A DNA stretch of 64,000 bases from Microlunatus speluncae. GTDB lineage: Bacteria; Actinomycetota; Actinomycetes; Propionibacteriales; Propionibacteriaceae. The number at the start of each line of letters is the position of its first letter. Within the stretch, counting starts at the first letter, position 1. The translations under genes were made by a program, and so were the position numbers. The notes under the pieces are model-generated. The model had not been told where the DNA came from. It did not search any database and worked only from the letters and a program-made list of their open reading frames with translations. Shown piece after piece: positions 1,373-10,358 of the stretch. The stretch is taken from assembly GCF_009299835.1 (NCBI RefSeq), contig NZ_VKCZ01000014.1, positions 186,001-250,000 of the forward strand, given 5' to 3'.

Positions 1373-2367
1373 GCGTCGCCGGGACCGGCCGCGATGCGGT
1401 CGTACGTCACGGTGGTCCGTTCCGGCTGGAAGCCGAGCGAACGGTAGAGCGCGTCGGCGCCGGTTGGGCTGGCCGCGTCGACGCCGAGGGACATGGTCTG
1501 GTAGCCGAGCTCGGTGGCCGACGTTCCGACCCGTCCGATCAGGGCCGACGCGATGCCGCGCTTGCGGTGGCTGGCCGCGGTGCCGACGATGTCGATCCAG
1601 GCGTCCTTGACCCCGGTCGCGTCGGTGTCGGCCTCGTAGTACATGGTGATCGCCATCCCGACCGGCGTGCCGTCCTCGGTCAGTGCCAGCCAGGTCAGCT
1701 CGGGCCGGAAGTTGCGGCTCCGGGTCTTGTAATGCCGCCATTCCTCGATGGTCCAGGTCCCGGCGCCCCAGTGATCGGCGAATGCGTCGTTGCGCAGGAT
1801 CCGCAGCGGCTCCTCGAACTCCGGCGCGTACGGCAGCAGGGTCAGCCCGGCCGGATCCGGGCCGGGCGCCGGCCGGTCCGCGGCCAGCTCGAGGGTGAGC
1901 TCGGAGAACCAGCGGACCGCGCTGAAGCCGTGTTTGGTCAGCAGCCGCGCACCGCGCTGGTCGGCCTCGGGCAGGCCGGCCCGCAGGTTCAGCGGCTGGT
2001 CGGAGCCCTCGGCCGCCTGCCGCTGCTCGGCGGTCCGGATCGCCCAGCGGAGCAGCTCGGTGCCGACCCCGTGGCCGCGGTGCTCGGGATGCACGGCGGA
2101 GTCGAGGGCGACCCGGAACACCGGTTCGGTCGTCTCCCGGACCGCGAGGCTGCCGTATCCGGCCAGTCGGCCGTCCCGCAGCACCGCCAGCGTGTCCCGG
2201 GCCAGGTCGAGCCCGGGGGACTCCAGGTCTTCGACCAGGTCCTCCGCGGAGTAGTGCTCACCGGTCCGGTCGGCCGCCGCGCAGGCGTCCAGCAACTCCA
2301 CCCAGCCCGGGATGTCCTCCGGACCCAACGCTCGCAACTCCACGATGCCCCCACCTCGGCCAGTCAT
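1369..2367 (-). CDS. Tandem GNAT-domain N-acetyltransferase
   Basis: A 332-residue protein with two Gcn5-related acetyltransferase folds in a row. The first has the acetyl-CoA pyrophosphate loop HPEHRGHGVGTELL near residues 90-105. The second has SHRKRGIASALIG near residue 265. Two-GNAT proteins of this length include mycothiol synthase MshD, and the segment NDAFADHWG resembles that superfamily, but I see no feature that fixes MshD identity, so the acceptor substrate is unassigned. The ATG at 2367 overlaps the stop of the upstream gene as ATGA and its own stop overlaps the sulfatase GTG, so three genes form one coupled transcription unit. Confidence 0.85.
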   Translation of the reverse strand: MTGRGGGIVELRALGPEDIPGWVELLDACAAADRTGEHYSAEDLVEDLESPGLDLARDTLAVLRDGRLAGYGSLAVRETTEPVFRVALDSAVHPEHRGHGVGTELLRWAIRTAEQRQAAEGSDQPLNLRAGLPEADQRGARLLTKHGFSAVRWFSELTLELAADRPAPGPDPAGLTLLPYAPEFEEPLRILRNDAFADHWGAGTWTIEEWRHYKTRSRNFRPELTWLALTEDGTPVGMAITMYYEADTDATGVKDAWIDIVGTAASHRKRGIASALIGRVGTSATELGYQTMSLGVDAASPTGADALYRSLGFQPERTTVTYDRIAAGPGDA

Positions 2368-3020
2368 AGGTTCAGGTCGGTGGAATTGAGGAGGTCGATG
2401 GCCTCCGGTTCGCCGACCAGCTTGACCTCGGCGGCGGTGGTCCGGCCGTTGGCGAACAGCATCAGCTCACTGGGTACGCCGACGACGGTGACGATCGAGG
2501 AGCCGGTGCTGGCCCGGATGCTCTCCGCCTCGCCGGAGTCGGTGACCGAGCCGGACCGCTCCAGCGTGACCCCGAGCTGGGCCCGGCGGAAGAAGGCCCG
2601 GCCGAGCAGCTTGAGCCGCCGCCACATCCATTCCTCGACCTCGTCGTCGAGCTCCCGGTGCGGCTGCGGCACCGGCCCGCCGCGCCGGACATCCTCGTGG
2701 TGGATGAAGAACTCGGTGGTGTTGGCAGCGTCGTCCACCCCGGGGATGGCGAAGACCGAGAACCGGGCCGGTCCGTGCCGCAGCCGGTCGACCAGCTCGC
2801 CGTACTCCCAGCGTTGCTTGGTCTCGGCCATCCGGCGCTCGGTCAGCCCGGCCAGCGGTTTGGCCAGCATGCCCGGCGCCCCGAGCGGATCGGTCTCCCG
2901 GATCCACAGGTGGGTCGCGAGATCGTGGGTCGTCCACCCCTCGCACAAGGTCGGGGCCTCCGCCCCGAGCTCGTCGAAGAGGTCACACAACGCGGCGCGT
3001 TCCGTCTTCGCGAAGGTCAT
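2364..3020 (-). CDS. TIGR03085-type metal-binding protein (MDMPI/DinB fold)
   Basis: A 218-residue protein of the actinobacterial TIGR03085 family, related to mycothiol-dependent maleylpyruvate isomerase and DinB-fold enzymes. The N-terminal helical domain begins with LCDLFDELGAEAPTLCEGWT and carries the His residues of the expected metal site (DLATHLWIRE, FFIHHEDVRR). The C-terminal part resembles the sterol-carrier-like domain of these proteins (SELMLFANGR). The reaction is unknown; enzymes of this fold often use mycothiol. It is first of a three-gene coupled unit. A hexamer TAGCAT lies 8 bases before its ATG, so its transcript is probably leaderless or nearly so. It diverges from the HisI-TrpE gene. 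Confidence 0.82.
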   Translation of the reverse strand: MTFAKTERAALCDLFDELGAEAPTLCEGWTTHDLATHLWIRETDPLGAPGMLAKPLAGLTERRMAETKQRWEYGELVDRLRHGPARFSVFAIPGVDDAANTTEFFIHHEDVRRGGPVPQPHRELDDEVEEWMWRRLKLLGRAFFRRAQLGVTLERSGSVTDSGEAESIRASTGSSIVTVVGVPSELMLFANGRTTAAEVKLVGEPEAIDLLNSTDLNL

Positions 3021-3089: not shown

Positions 3090-3101
3090 AACAATGGACC
3101 C
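3090..3101 (+). promoter_or_regulatory. Possible leaderless promoter of the HisI-TrpE gene
   Basis: The hexamer AACAAT is followed by exactly six bases and the GTG start. This is the spacing seen at several other leaderless-looking genes here, although the hexamer is a weaker -10 match. No long Trp-rich leader peptide or attenuator hairpin is visible in the 81 bp divergent gap. Confidence 0.3.
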
Positions 3102-5006
3102 GTGTCCGACACCCCCGCGACCCCCAGCCAGACCCTGCCCGAGGAGATCCGGGCCGCGCTCAAGCGCGACCGTGACGGCCTGATCGCCGCCGTCGTCCAG
3201 GAGGAGAGCACCGGCGACGTGCTGATGCTCGGCTGGATGGATGACGAGGCGCTGCACCGCTCGCTGACCACCGGGCGGTCGACGTTCTACTCCCGCAGCC
3301 GGCAGGAATACTGGGTCAAGGGCGAGACCAGCGGCCACCGGCAGTGGGTCCGCGAGGTCCGGCTGGACTGCGACGGCGACGCGTTGTTGATCAAGGTCCA
3401 CCAGGAGGGCCCGGCCTGCCACACCGGCACCCACAGCTGCTTCGACGACCGGGAGTTGCCGGCCGTCGTGGTCGCCCCGTCCGACGCCGAGCCGGCGTCG
3501 GCCATGATCACGCCCAGCCTGGAGGACTTCCGCAAGCAGGCCGTGGAACGCCGGGTGATCCCCGTCTACCGCCGGCTGCTGGCCGACACCGAATCGGCGG
3601 TCAGCCTGTACGCGAAGCTGAGCCGCGGCCTGCCCGGCAGCTATCTGCTGGAGTCGGCCGAGCAGGGGGTGTGGTCGCGCTACTCGTTCATCGGGGTGAA
3701 GGCCGCGGCCACCCTGACCGAGCGCGACGGCGAGGCGCACTGGACCGGGCATGCGCCGGTCGGGCTGCCGTCCGGCGGCGACCCGATCCAGGCCGTGCAG
3801 GAGACGCTGCGGCTGCTGCACACCCCGCGCGACGAGGGGCTGCCGCCGTTCACCTCCGGGCTGGTCGGTTATCTGTCCTACGACGCGGTGCGCCGGGTCG
3901 AGGTGCTGCCGGACACCAACCCGGGCGACATCGGCATCCCGGAGCTGGCGTTCCTGCTGGCCAGCGATCTGGCCGTGCTGGACCAGCACACCGGCGAGGT
4001 GTGGCTGATCGCCAACGCGATCAACTACGACGCCACCGACGAGCGGGTCGACGAGGCGTACGCCGACGCGGTCCGCCGGGTCGAGGCGATGACCGAGGCG
4101 CTGCGCCGGCCCACCCCGTCGGCCGTGGTCGCGGCGAATCGTGATCACACCGTGCCGGTCCGGCGGCAGCGGACGGCGGACGAATACCAGGACGCGGTCC
4201 GGGCGGCGATCGAGGAGATCAAGGCCGGCGAGGCCTTCCAGATCGTGGTCAGTCAACGGTTCGAGGTGGAGACGTCGGCCGACGCGCTGGACATCTACCG
4301 GGTGCTCCGGCTGACCAACCCGAGCCCGTACATGTATCTGCTCCGGCTGGACGGCTTCGACATCGTCGGCTGTTCGCCGGAGGCGCTGGTGACCGTGAAG
4401 GAGGGCACGGCGATCACGCACCCGATCGCCGGGTCGAAGCCGCGCGGGGCCACGCCGGCCGAGGACGCCGCGTACGAGGCCGAGCTCGAGTCCGATCCCA
4501 AGGAGCGGGCCGAGCACGTGATGCTGGTCGACCTGGGCCGCAATGATCTTGGTCGGGTCTGCAAGCCGGGCACGGTCGAGGTGATCGAATTCGCCGAGGT
4601 GCGGCGCTACAGCCACATCATGCACCTGGAGTCGACCGTCACCGGGGTGATCGCCGACGGCCGCAGCGCGCTGGACGTCGTCCTGGCCGCGTTCCCGGCC
4701 GGCACCCTGTCCGGTGCGCCGAAGGTCCGGGCGATGGAGATCATCGACAAGCTGGAGACCAGCCGCCGTGCCCTCTACGGCGGCGTGGTCGGCTACTTCG
4801 ACTTCGCCGGTGACGCCGACGCCGCGATCGCCATCCGGACCGCCCTGGTCAAGGACGGCGTCGCGTACGTGCAGGCCGGCGGCGGCATCGTCGCCGACTC
4901 GGTGCCGGCCACCGAAGATCAGGAGAGCCAGAACAAGGCTGCCGCCGTGATCCGGGCGATCTCGATCGCCGAGTCGTTCGCCGAACCGACGGCCGCGGCA
5001 CGGTGA
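3102..5006 (+). CDS. hisI-trpE: Fused phosphoribosyl-AMP cyclohydrolase / anthranilate synthase component I (HisI-TrpE)
   Basis: One 634-residue frame joins two enzymes. Residues 1 to about 120 are HisI, which opens the ring of phosphoribosyl-AMP in histidine synthesis. They carry the DCDGD metal motif (89-93) and cysteines C90, C106 and C113 with the 16- and 7-residue spacing of the HisI zinc site. After a linker, residues from about 135 are full-length TrpE, making anthranilate from chorismate with glutamine amide or ammonia. Its motifs are LLESAE (feedback-site LLES), [39 protein letters not shown] and [13 protein letters not shown]. No stop separates the parts, but an internal ATG (3504, residue 135) could start TrpE alone. 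hisI and trpE are often neighbours in actinobacteria; a fusion is less usual. trpG and trpD are not in the window. Confidence 0.93.
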
Positions 5007-5022
5007 CGATCAGCCTCCGATC

Positions 5023-5607
5023 ATGATCACTCCGGCCCGATCCCGCATCGCCGGCCTGGCCGGCGTGGCACTGGCCGGCCTGCTCGCGTTGATCGTCTCG
5101 GCCCAGCCGTGGTGGCGGGCCCAGGGGAGCGACGCCGGGGTCGTGTTCACCGGCACCGACGCGACCGCGGGGCTGAGCCAGGCCCTCGGCGCCGTCGCGC
5201 TGGCCGGGTTCCTGCTCGGTCTCGCGCTGCGCGGCTGCGGCCGACAGGTGCTCGCCGGTCTGCTTGGCGTGGTCGGAGTGGCGATCGTCGTGGTCGGCGG
5301 GTTCCGGTTCCAGCCCGACTCCGACGCCGTCCGGGCCCGGCTGCAGCAGGTCAGCCTCAGTGATCAGTTCGCGCTGACCGGCACGCCCTGGCCGATCGGC
5401 TACGTGGTCGCCGGCGTGCTGCTGCTCGCCGCCGCGGCCATGATCATGATCACCGCCCCCTCCTGGCCCACCCGGACCGACCGCTTCCGCCGCGACCGGG
5501 CCGCCACGCCGGTCGAGGAGGCGGAGCCGATCGACCTGTGGAAGGCGATGGACTCCGGCCAGGACCCCACCGCCGCCGAGCCACCCGGGCGGACCAAGGA
5601 TTCGTAA
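5023..5607 (+). CDS. Trp biosynthesis-associated membrane protein (TIGR02234-like)
   Basis: A 194-residue integral membrane protein with about four hydrophobic segments (residues 10-27, 55-70, 75-95 and 125-145) and a charged cytoplasmic tail ending DLWKAMDSGQDPT, which matches the tail signature of the actinobacterial trp-operon membrane protein. It starts 16 bases after trpE. Members of this family sit almost always between trpE and trpC, but their molecular function is not established. The coding strand is clearly the plus strand because the reverse-frame product is low-complexity shadow. Confidence 0.85.
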   Translation: MITPARSRIAGLAGVALAGLLALIVSAQPWWRAQGSDAGVVFTGTDATAGLSQALGAVALAGFLLGLALRGCGRQVLAGLLGVVGVAIVVVGGFRFQPDSDAVRARLQQVSLSDQFALTGTPWPIGYVVAGVLLLAAAAMIMITAPSWPTRTDRFRRDRAATPVEEAEPIDLWKAMDSGQDPTAAEPPGRTKDS

Positions 5608-5656: not shown

Positions 5657-5838
5657 GGCAGGCCAGTCCGCGCCGTTCGCCGGACGGATTCGGCCTGGCG
5701 GCCGGAAAGATGCATCAAGGCCGGGAGAACGGCGCGGTCTGCCAACTGGTCTGCGGGATGTCTGGGAATCTGCCCGGCGCGGGGTCCGATGGTTCTAACC
5801 TGCGGATGTTGTTTCGGGTTCCGACAGAGAGGCCGTCC

Positions 5839-6483
5839 ATGTCCCACGAAATTCGTGCATCCGCGCTGCCGCCCGTGGTCACGAAAGAGGAGTGGCAGCA
5901 GGCCCGGGCCGAGCTGCTGGCGGAGGAGAAGGCGCTGACCCGGCAGTTGGACCAGTTGGCGGCGAAGCGGCGGCGGCTGCCGATGGTCCCGTTCGACGGC
6001 ACCGGTCACCGGCTGGAGACACCGGATGGGCCGAAGACCCTGCTCGACCTGTTCGGCGATCAGCTCCAACTCGCCGTGTACCAGTTCATGGACAACGGGC
6101 CGGACGACTACTGCCCGGGCTGCACCGCGTTCACCGACAACGTCACGAACCTCGACACGCTCCGGTCGAGGGGTGCCGCCTGGGTCACCGTCTCGGACAT
6201 GCCGCTGGAGCAGATCGCCGGCTACTGGCAGCAGCGCGGCTGGACGGTGCCGTACGCGTCCTCCCGCGGCACCAGCTTCGCCGCCGACTGCGGCGTGATC
6301 GGCTTCCAACTGACGATCTTCCTCCGCGACGGCGACCAGGTGTTCAAGACCTGGACCACGGGCTCGCGCGGAGTCGACCGGCTGATGTTCTCGACCAACC
6401 TGCTCGACCTGCTGCCGTACGGCCGACAGGAGGACTGGGAGGACTCCCCGGAGGGCTGGCCGCAACACCCGACCTACGGCTGA
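5839..6483 (+). CDS. DUF899 family thioredoxin-fold protein
   Basis: A 214-residue protein of the DUF899 family, a peroxiredoxin/thioredoxin-like fold whose enzymatic role is not settled. Recognisable features are the opening VVTKEEWQQARAELLAEEKA, the strand YQFMDNGPDDYCPGCTAF with a CPGC pair where a redox site would lie, and the tail FSTNLLDLLPYGRQEDWEDS. The ATG at 5839 is chosen because it follows a GAGAGG ribosome site and the family begins here; the frame runs further upstream only through repeat sequence. It is inserted between the trp membrane protein and the second trp segment, so its link to tryptophan synthesis is positional only. Confidence 0.85.
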   Translation: MSHEIRASALPPVVTKEEWQQARAELLAEEKALTRQLDQLAAKRRRLPMVPFDGTGHRLETPDGPKTLLDLFGDQLQLAVYQFMDNGPDDYCPGCTAFTDNVTNLDTLRSRGAAWVTVSDMPLEQIAGYWQQRGWTVPYASSRGTSFAADCGVIGFQLTIFLRDGDQVFKTWTTGSRGVDRLMFSTNLLDLLPYGRQEDWEDSPEGWPQHPTYG

Positions 6484-6484
6484 T

Positions 6485-6542
6485 CCCACGCCGACTTGTC
6501 AGAACTGAGTTGTGCCCTGGGGCTACTCAGTTCTGACAAGTC
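6485..6542 (+). repeat. Long perfect palindrome, dispersed copy 1
   Basis: Arms gacttgtcagaactgagt (6493-6510) and its exact reverse complement (6525-6542) enclose a 14-base loop. The whole 50-base core is the exact reverse complement of the copy at 48184-48233. It lies between convergent genes and the stop codon of the minus-strand gene (6541-6543) is formed by its last bases. It could act as a bidirectional terminator, but exact conservation of the loop argues for a mobile repeat. Confidence 0.85.
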
Positions 6543-6867
6543 AGCGGGGGCGGCGGCGGAGGGCGAGGCGGAGGAGGGCGTGCAGGGCGAGGTTGAGGAC
6601 CGCCGGGCCGAGGCGGAGGAGGAGGCCGAGCCCGCCGGTGGGTTCGGTGGCGCCGGCCAGGAACGGGATGGTCCAGGGCAGGCCGAGCACGAGCAGCACG
6701 AGGCCGACCAGACCGGCGCCGATGTTGGCGTCCGGGCCGGTGTGCAGGGCGGTCGCGATCACGTACAGGATCAGGAAGGCGAGGACCACGATCCCGTGCA
6801 CGAGCAGCACCCGGCTGCCGATCCGACCCCGCTGGGGCGGGCCTGGGGTGCTGCTCGGTTCGGACAT
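6541..6867 (-). CDS. Small membrane protein, unknown function
   Basis: A 108-residue protein with three predicted membrane segments (about residues 18-40, 48-65 and 75-95) and an Arg-rich end. I do not recognise the family. The start is taken at the ATG (MSEPSSTPG); the frame continues upstream but without the same quality. Its stop codon is supplied by the palindromic repeat, so the repeat insertion may have set the present C-terminus, which ends in a run of arginines. It is divergent from the HGxxPAAW gene. Confidence 0.6.
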   Translation of the reverse strand: MSEPSSTPGPPQRGRIGSRVLLVHGIVVLAFLILYVIATALHTGPDANIGAGLVGLVLLVLGLPWTIPFLAGATEPTGGLGLLLRLGPAVLNLALHALLRLALRRRPR

Positions 6868-6998
6868 CACGACTCCCGCGGTTTCGACGACGGCACACTG
6901 TAGCGAGCCGCGCCCGTCGGCCCTGCTCACGACCCCGATGTGCATCAAGGGGTGTCGAGAGGCCACAATGGGACCACACATGGCGAGGCGAGGGGACC

Positions 6999-7241
6999 AT
7001 GACTGACACATCCAGCGCATCGGACACGGCGTCCGCGCAACCTCGGGTGAAGCACGTCCACCACGGCCGGACCCCGGCCGCCTGGACCGGCGTGACCATC
7101 GCGATGATCGGTTTCATCGTCGGCGGCATCGCCATGGTGACCGGCCCCAACTGGACCCTCTTCTGGATCTCGGTCGCGATCTTGGTCGTGTCCCTGATCG
7201 TGACCGGAATCATGCGCAAGCTCGGCCACGGCGCCGTCTGA
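6999..7241 (+). CDS. HGxxPAAW family small membrane protein
   Basis: An 80-residue protein with the signature [10 protein letters not shown] (residues 22-31), then two membrane helices (about 32-50 and 54-72) and a basic end. Proteins with this signature lie just upstream of trpC in many actinobacteria; no biochemical role is known. An AGGGGA ribosome site precedes the ATG. The gene ends 35 bases before trpC and probably belongs to the trpC transcription unit. Confidence 0.82.
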
Positions 7242-7276: not shown

Positions 7277-8080
7277 ATGGGAGCACTAGACGACATCATC
7301 GCGGGCGTCCGGGACGACCTCGAGGTACGCCAGCAAGAGGTTCCGCTGGAACGGCTCAAGGAGCGGGTGCAGCAGGTCGCGCCGGCGCTCGACCCGGTGC
7401 CGGTCCTGGCCGGCTCCGCCGTCGCCGTGATCGCCGAGGTGAAGCGGTCCAGCCCCAGCAAGGGAGCGCTGGCCGAGATCGCCGATCCGGCCGCCCTGGC
7501 CGGCGAGTACGAGGCCGGCGGGGCAGCGGCCATCTCGGTGCTGACGGAGCGTCGTCGTTTCGGCGGATCGCTGGACGACCTGATCAAGGTCCGCTGTGCG
7601 GTCGACATCCCGGTGCTGCGCAAGGACTTCATCGTCACCGCGTACCAGCTGTTCGAGGCCCGCGCGGCCGGCGCCGACCTGGCGCTGCTGATCGTCGCCG
7701 CGCTGGATGACAACGAGCTGGTCAGCCTGATCGAGCGGGCCGAGTCGATCGGCCTGACCCCGCTGGTCGAGGTGCACACGGCGGACGAGATCAAGCGTGC
7801 GGTCGATGCCGGCGCCAAGATCATCGGCGTCAACGCCCGCAACCTGCAGACCCTCGAGGTCGACCAGAGCACCTTCGCCCGGCTGGCGCCGTCGATCCCG
7901 AGCGGGATCGTCCGGATCGCCGAGTCCGGCGTCCGCGGCCCACACGACGTGATCGAGCTGGCCCGCGCCGGTGCCGACGTCGTCCTGGTCGGCGAGGCCC
8001 TGGTCACCGGTCGCGACCCGCGGGCCGGGGTGGCCGACCTGGTCGCCGCCGGCGCCCACCCGGCGCTCTACAAGTCCTGA
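7277..8080 (+). CDS. trpC: Indole-3-glycerol phosphate synthase
   Basis: A 267-residue single-domain TIM barrel that closes CdRP to indole-3-glycerol phosphate. The hallmark segments are [13 protein letters not shown] (first catalytic lysine, residues about 52-64), LRKDFIV (second lysine), PLVEVH, GVNARNL and AESGVR, in the right order for TrpC and of normal length. It is not fused to TrpF. Actinobacteria usually rely on PriA (HisA/TrpF) for the preceding isomerase step, and no trpF or priA is in the window. It precedes trpB with a 116 bp gap. Confidence 0.96.
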
Positions 8081-8196: not shown

Positions 8197-9449
<1,253 letters not shown>

Positions 9450-9450
<1 letters not shown>

Positions 9451-10358
9451 TGGGGTACGAACTCGGCAACAGCGGGGCGGCGATCGCCTCCGTCCGGGCC
9501 GGTGCCGACGGAGCGGGGGATCGGGCCGCGCTGGTCGGCTATCTCCCGGTCGGCTTCCCGTCGGTGCCCGGCTCGCTGGCGGCGCTGCGGGCGCTGACCG
9601 GTGAGGGCGATTCGCCCGGCGTCGACCTGGTCGAGGTCGGCATGCCGTACTCGGATCCGGTGATCGACGGCGTCACCGTGCAGCGGGCCGGAACGGCGGC
9701 GCTGGAGCGCGGCTTCCGGGTCCGGGACGTGTTCGCCGGGGTCGAGGCGGTCACCGCCACCGGCACCCCGGCCGTCGTGATGACGTACTGGAATCTGGTC
9801 GACCGCTACGGCGTCGACGCCTTCGCCCGCGACCTGGCCGCGGCCGGCGGGGCCGGGCTGATCACGCCCGACCTGACCCCGGACGAGGGCGCGGAGTGGA
9901 TCGCCGCGGCCGACGCGCACGGGCTGGACAAGGTCTTCCTGGTGTCACCGTCGTCCACCGACGAGCGGCTGACCCGCACCGTCCAGAGCTGCCGCGGCTG
10001 GGTGTATGCGACCGCCGTGATGGGCGTCACCGGCGCCCGGGCCACCACCTCCGCGGCCGCTCCGGAGCTGGTCCGCCGGGTCCGCGCGGCCGTGCCGGAC
10101 GCGATCGTCGGCGTCGGGCTCGGCGTCTCCAACGGCGCCCAGGCGGCGGAGATCGGGGCCTATGCCGACGCGGTCGTCGTCGGTTCGGCGTTGGTGTCGC
10201 GGATGATCGAGGCCGACGAAGCCGGCCGGCCCGAGGACCTGTCCGGGCTGCGTGCGCTGGTCGCCGACCTCGCCGCGGGTGTCCGGGATCACAGCGGCGG
10301 TCACAAGTCGGACACGGCCGGAACCATTGCGGGAGCAGCCGGGTTAGTCCCACAGTGA
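9450..10358 (+). CDS. trpA: Tryptophan synthase alpha chain
   Basis: A 302-residue TIM barrel that cleaves indole-3-glycerol phosphate and passes indole to TrpB. The catalytic residues are E62 (VEVGMPYSDP) and D69 in the same motif. TPDLTPDEG, LVSPSST and VGLGVSNGAQ follow in normal order. The ATG shares one base with the trpB stop, so the longer upstream frame is rejected. The C-terminus extends about 20 residues past the fold. Its stop overlaps the next gene as GTGA. Confidence 0.96.

Follow-up and report, generated by a model that had tools for sequence, protein, structure and literature searches.

A HisI-TrpE gene fusion in Microlunatus speluncae and a sister species

The hisI-trpE locus

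The window (the whole stretch of DNA that was analysed, 64,000 nucleotides from Microlunatus speluncae) contains a forward-strand reading frame of 634 codons, with no internal stop, in which a HisI domain is followed by a short linker and a TrpE domain (Table 1). The start and end of this frame and an internal ATG at 3504 lie where the initial annotation had placed them. The claim that a complete HisI runs in frame into a complete TrpE was borne out by matches in Pfam and NCBIfam, by the metal motif of HisI, and by a second copy of the fusion in a sister species (G008). Pfam placed PRA-CH at residues 42-114, Anth_synt_I_N at 162-302 and Chorismate_bind at 360-612. The same Pfam search found neither a HisIE-type PRA-PH domain C-terminal to HisI nor a TrpEG-type glutamine amidotransferase domain in the fusion chain; PRA-PH matches lie elsewhere in the genome.

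Table 1. Features at and around the fused gene (positions in the window)
Feature	Position	Strand	Details and basis
TIGR03085 family gene, divergent, conserved neighbour	2364..3020	-	NCBIfam, locus comparison
ACAAT, -10-like element	3091..3095	+	6 nt before GTG start; read by eye
Fused hisI-trpE CDS	3102..5006	+	634 aa, GTG start; ORF, Pfam, NCBIfam, same fusion in G008
HisI (phosphoribosyl-AMP cyclohydrolase) domain	3174..3443	+	Residues 25-114; 1ZPS alignment, PF01502
Linker, predicted disordered	3450..3500	+	Residues 117-133; AlphaFold2 pLDDT < 50
In-frame GTG, possible internal start	3468..3470	+	Residue 123; moderate Shine-Dalgarno in window, weak in G008
In-frame ATG, possible TrpE start raised in the initial annotation	3504..3506	+	Residue 135; unconserved, Shine-Dalgarno at background
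TrpE (anthranilate synthase component I)	3507..4988	+	Residues 136-629; Pfam, NCBIfam, alignment, Foldseek 5CWA/7BVD
Tryptophan-associated membrane protein (PF09534)	5023..5607	+	16 nt after fusion; Pfam
trpC	7277..8080	+	Pfam, NCBIfam
trpB	8197..9450	+	Named by inspection; matches in relatives
trpA	9450..10358	+	Named by inspection; start approximate

The -10-like element upstream of the fused gene has counterparts in the genus. By eye, A(C/G)AAT was seen 6-7 nt before a GTG, presumed to be in frame, upstream of hisI in all 16 genus members shown, which suggests that the hisI transcript is leaderless. No leader or attenuator RNA from Rfam was found in the window at the gathering threshold.

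Two genes in the trp cluster, a DUF899 gene (5710-6483) and a minus-strand open reading frame (6541-7020), lie between the tryptophan membrane protein gene and the HGxxPAAW gene. They had tblastn matches in none of eight loci (L138-L145), all of which contain both flanking genes, and they therefore look inserted. A sulfatase-like open reading frame was recognised by inspection on the minus strand at 5-1741. The stretch that codes for its first ~115 residues is shared, in a different frame, with the gene at 1369-2367, and the true start of the sulfatase-like frame probably lies further in.

The HisI and TrpE domains

The HisI half of the protein matched PF01502 (PRA-CH) with 114.8 bits against a cut-off of 27, and the NCBIfam HisI model NF000768 scored 170.9 on the fusion against a cut-off of 126. 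The initial annotation had pointed to a metal motif and spaced cysteines in this half. In alignment with the solved HisI structure 1ZPS, the motif residues Asp89, Asp91, Asp93, Cys90, Cys106 and Cys113 fall in register. Three aspartates and three cysteines are named as the metal ligands of PRA-CH in the available part of PMC8102479, where the solved plant PRA-CH is a dimer in which each metal site is built from both chains. By analogy, a dimer of the fused HisI would carry two TrpE domains.

The TrpE half exceeded the cut-offs of two NCBIfam models, NF010086 for TrpE (788.6 versus 693) and TIGR00564 (532.4 versus 517.7). Its alignment to solved mycobacterial TrpE spans residues 131-629, and the chorismate-binding region is conserved. 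Residues 182-186 of the fusion are LLESA, which includes the LLES motif that we take to be the tryptophan feedback site of TrpE.

The fusion was modelled with AlphaFold2 from an alignment of 33 rows, 10 of which were read through one stop purely for depth. The model had a mean pLDDT of 86.7 and a pTM of 0.78, with values below 50 at residues 1-9, 117-133 and 630-634, and the protein is thus predicted to consist of two folded parts joined by a flexible tether. In a Foldseek search with this model the top rows were mycobacterial TrpE (5CWA, E 3.6e-66, TMt 0.94; 7BVD_A, TMt 0.95). The 50 matches listed were filled by TrpE relatives and included no HisI structure, so the HisI fold rests on the sequence match to 1ZPS. 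The C-terminal part of HisI, which contains Cys106 and Cys113, was modelled weakly (mean pLDDT 67 for residues 101-110 and 54 for 111-120).

A second fused genome and selection on both domains

The same open fusion, 91% identical to that of the window genome (G000), is present in the separate assembly of the sister species G008. Because of this independent copy a sequencing error is very unlikely. The open junction is by itself weak evidence, since the DNA is 70% GC and such DNA often leaves 60-codon stretches open; in the two other forward frames they are open at 91 and 347 of 574 positions. Both assemblies are flagged as 7-8% contaminated, which could be taken to favor an artefact of assembly or sequencing. 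However, the two assemblies agree with each other and match in surrounding gene order, and across junction residues 118-135 they differ at 22 of 54 bases with no indel, leaving 7 of 18 residues identical. We regard an artefact as extremely unlikely.

Comparison of G000 with G008 gave a dN/dS of 0.16 over 632 codons of the fusion, with 0.17 for the HisI core (residues 16-117) and 0.12 for TrpE (136-632). Faster evolution was seen in the N-terminal tail of HisI (0.47), in junction 118-135 (0.47) and in the first 30 residues of TrpE (0.71). Both domains are clearly under purifying selection; this bears on the domains and not on their joining. When 22 random substitutions were simulated in the junction, the chance of a stop was 0.19-0.24, so that its remaining open is mildly informative.

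Whole-genome searches of G000 yielded a single HisI match, which lies inside the fusion, and a single full-length TrpE match, which is the fusion itself. The only other TrpE match at E <= 1e-30 is on contig C19; it is 37% identical, covers fusion residues 340-621 only, and sits in a 706-codon open frame that also matches TrpG/PabA and probably encodes a PabAB-type enzyme. One more TrpE match, weaker than that on C19, was counted. The copy in G008, the low dN/dS, the lone HisI match and the lack of a second full-length TrpE are decisive and confirm that the fusion is real.

Distribution of the fusion

Genome searches, named in the initial annotation as the way to learn how far the fusion extends, traced it to G008 and, among the matches listed, no further. 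Our genus sample comprised 20 genomes, which is fewer than all known species; the samples overlap, so their counts cannot be added. Two genomes of the genus are fused (G000 and G008), 14 have adjacent unfused genes, three have no trpE at the locus, and in one (G001) trpE is broken by a contig end. No further open fusion was found among the matches listed for the family (197 genomes, at least 163 matching at 1e-80) or the class (394 genomes, at least 288 matching at 1e-100, with rows listed to about E 4e-179). Only G000 and G008 span both domains without a stop among the order matches (391 genomes, 19 matching at 1e-225), and the phylum sample (396 genomes, two matching at 1e-195) contained no open fusion beyond these two. 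With the strict cut-offs for order and phylum and with matches listed in part, a divergent fusion could escape. A collection of named genomes had no fusion in its best 80 loci, where the named loci are mostly from Actinomycetota; both genes occur in 78 of the 80 and their adjacency is not constant.

A check with HisI alone in the class found HisI in 139 of 148 genomes, five times in open frames of at least 600 aa, and of these five only the frame in the window runs on into trpE. G281, G295 and G305, which have HisI in frames of this length, were rejected as fusions because their coordinates place HisI out of frame with trpE. G043 was likewise rejected; the TrpE-like match there is a weak one on a different contig, with nothing reaching 1e-100 among the matches listed.

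Among the matches listed for family (G071) and class (G317, G542, G258, G550, G588, G602, G294, G299 and G330), at least 10 genomes carry hisI and trpE in a common frame that is interrupted within the match by exactly one stop. Eight loci of the 10 listed were examined, and in all eight the stop falls between hisI and trpE. These eight loci (L126-L132 and L141) are from other genera and are one mutation short of a fusion. Two of them, L127 and L128, read the same at this point as L033 and L032, two named loci from Streptomyces.

A widespread actinobacterial HisI-TrpE fusion is unsupported by the matches listed in the family, order, class and phylum samples. As judged from these comparisons the fusion is derived, clade-specific and, as far as searched, narrowly spread.

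In three members of the genus, G003 (L143), G014 (L144) and G017 (L145), the gene immediately after hisI is Trp_oprn_chp, and nothing at the conserved locus matches trpE. The gene most like TrpE in these genomes is divergent, 41-43% identical over residues ~243-624, and lies elsewhere, which suggests loss and replacement of trpE.

Origin of the fusion

A 4-nt overlap of the hisI stop with the trpE start, ATGA in 10 and GTGA in four, is present in every one of the 14 unfused pairs of the genus; 13 of 13 loci examined in two further families of the order have it too. Spacing was measured between HisI residue 114 and TrpE residue 136. In the 14 unfused pairs it is 62-119 nt (62 nt in G013, G015 and G019) and in every case 2 mod 3, compared with 63 nt, or 0 mod 3, in both fused genomes. 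The TrpE tree, built on 27 rows, groups G000 with G008 as sisters (100/99) among unfused species, with no unfused species resolved as the nearest. With G016 and G013 as the reference, the codon at the ancestral trpE start position reads TCG in the window and GCG in G008, and the ancestral start is thus absent in both.

The most likely reading of these patterns is a single event, with one base gained net (or two lost) at an overlapping pair, in the common ancestor of the window species and G008. Before it, hisI and trpE would have overlapped by 4 nt (ATGA or GTGA) and would probably have been translationally coupled. The net change, the exact form of which we infer, would have occurred in the poorly conserved tail of hisI, removing the hisI stop and placing both genes in one frame. 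Decay of the trpE start codon and its ribosome site would have followed. The fusion appears to have been caught near its origin: species of the same genus keep the overlap, the frame and the trpE starts, and the likely step can be read directly.

Expression of the fused gene

Shine-Dalgarno energies at the 14 unfused trpE starts range from -4.3 to -11.6. As background, 500 positions drawn at random within the window gene gave a 5th percentile of -8.0, a 25th percentile of -5.6 and a median of -3.0. Five of the 14 starts lie beyond the 5th percentile and three inside the middle half, so the contrast is modest.

We considered whether TrpE is also, or mainly, made as a separate protein, either from an internal start (GTG 3468 or ATG 3504) or by cutting of the chain in the linker. 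Both codons are in frame in the window, and the disordered linker could be proteolysed. The initial annotation raised ATG 3504 as a possible TrpE start, but this codon is CCG in G008, its Shine-Dalgarno energy is -2.6 against the background median of -3.0, and it lies two codons past the ancestral start position (from the closest-spaced relatives, G016 and G013). The CCG in G008 and the background-level energy rule it out as a conserved TrpE start. GTG 3468 is shared by both genomes and has an energy of -6.9 in the window; in G008, however, the energy is only -1.7. Some separate TrpE might be made from this GTG in the window species. With the ancestral start codon also lost in both genomes, we consider separate TrpE unlikely as the explanation of the locus.

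Translation of one chain from the GTG start is the reading that we prefer, and near 1:1 expression of HisI and TrpE is likely. The initial annotation had proposed that the fusion forces equal levels unless the internal ATG is used. The first part agrees with this reading; the exception for ATG 3504 finds no support in an unconserved codon at background strength.

Pathway context and function

A PriA-type gene scored over its cut-off in both fused genomes and TrpF had no match in either. Thus, the histidine and tryptophan pathways probably share an isomerase in these genomes, in line with the statement of the initial annotation about PriA. PriA is described, in the part of PMC13055916 available to us, as an enzyme of Actinomycetota that evolved after loss of trpF. 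TrpG/PabA-type and PRA-PH matches were also over their cut-offs in both fused genomes, with the best TrpG/PabA-type match of G000 on contig C16. Because TrpG/PabA, PRA-PH and PriA-type genes are present, histidine and tryptophan synthesis both seem able to run on the fusion as the sole HisI and TrpE. Both enzyme activities are probably retained.

Based on these results, the gene probably encodes a genuine bifunctional HisI-TrpE that is translated from the GTG as a single chain, with a single origin in the ancestor of G000 and G008 and both enzymes working. On a flexible linker of ~17 residues both enzymes would work as before; HisI would form its usual dimer, TrpE would pair with TrpG encoded elsewhere, and no major new regulation would be expected.

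The fusion could instead be adaptive, with a HisI dimer joining two TrpE (together with TrpG) at a 1:1 ratio and coordinating two pathways that share PriA. The presence of PriA without TrpF, the two-chain metal sites of the dimeric plant enzyme (PMC8102479, as far as available) and a frame kept in both species across a junction with no indel are in keeping with this. On the other hand, one origin and two fused species were found, a narrow spread that argues against a strong general advantage. Nor are the reactions of HisI and TrpE consecutive, as they belong to different pathways. The linker is predicted to be disordered and evolves fast, and in the relatives the 4-nt overlap already makes hisI and trpE a single coupled unit. 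Adaptive joining is in our judgement quite improbable. Very improbable, too, is a working cross-pathway assembly in which obligate HisI dimers gather two TrpE-TrpG pairs and lock early enzymes of both pathways in fixed stoichiometry where PriA is already shared; if it were true, tryptophan feedback on TrpE and flux through HisI could show cross-talk. The fusion can be explained with no cross-pathway regulatory role. The second physical link between the pathways that the initial annotation proposed exists in the anatomy of the protein; the fusion alone does not demonstrate new co-regulation of histidine and tryptophan synthesis.

Comparison with known systems

Fusion is a known type of event, and the pairing of HisI with TrpE is new as far as searched. 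We found no description of it in the titles and abstract openings of the papers listed by literature searches, and the available parts of PMC11237513, PMC555942, PMC13055916 and PMC3896937 make no mention of it. The available part of PMC1963479 gives HisE, and HisD in fungi, as fusion partners of HisI, and none of the five his fusions counted there includes a trp gene. The fusion described here joins enzymes from different pathways rather than adjacent steps.

HisIE of bacteria and plants is likewise a bifunctional protein with HisI as its N-terminal domain. The partner there, HisE, however, catalyses the neighbouring step in HisI's own pathway, whereas TrpE belongs to another. The same part of PMC1963479 states that hisIE is absent from Actinobacteria, while its table lists 2.8% of 36. 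The TrpE-TrpG fusion (TrpEG), mentioned in the part of PMC555942 available to us, resembles the present protein in that TrpE lies within a longer chain with another enzyme. In TrpEG the partner is TrpE's own subunit, whereas here the TrpG-type gene is separate and the extra domain is an N-terminal HisI.

Further counterparts are the unfused gene pairs. One-stop in-frame pairs, for example in G071, G258 and G542, share the continuity of frame but keep exactly one stop. The pairs overlapping at ATGA or GTGA in the genus and order have the same genes in the same order, with neighbours also shared in L139 and L140; they encode two proteins and keep the trpE start, whereas the fusion is one frame. 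In Proteobacteria, according to the available part of PMC1963479, approach and overlap of genes preceded the his fusions, which is the same route as we propose for hisI-trpE.
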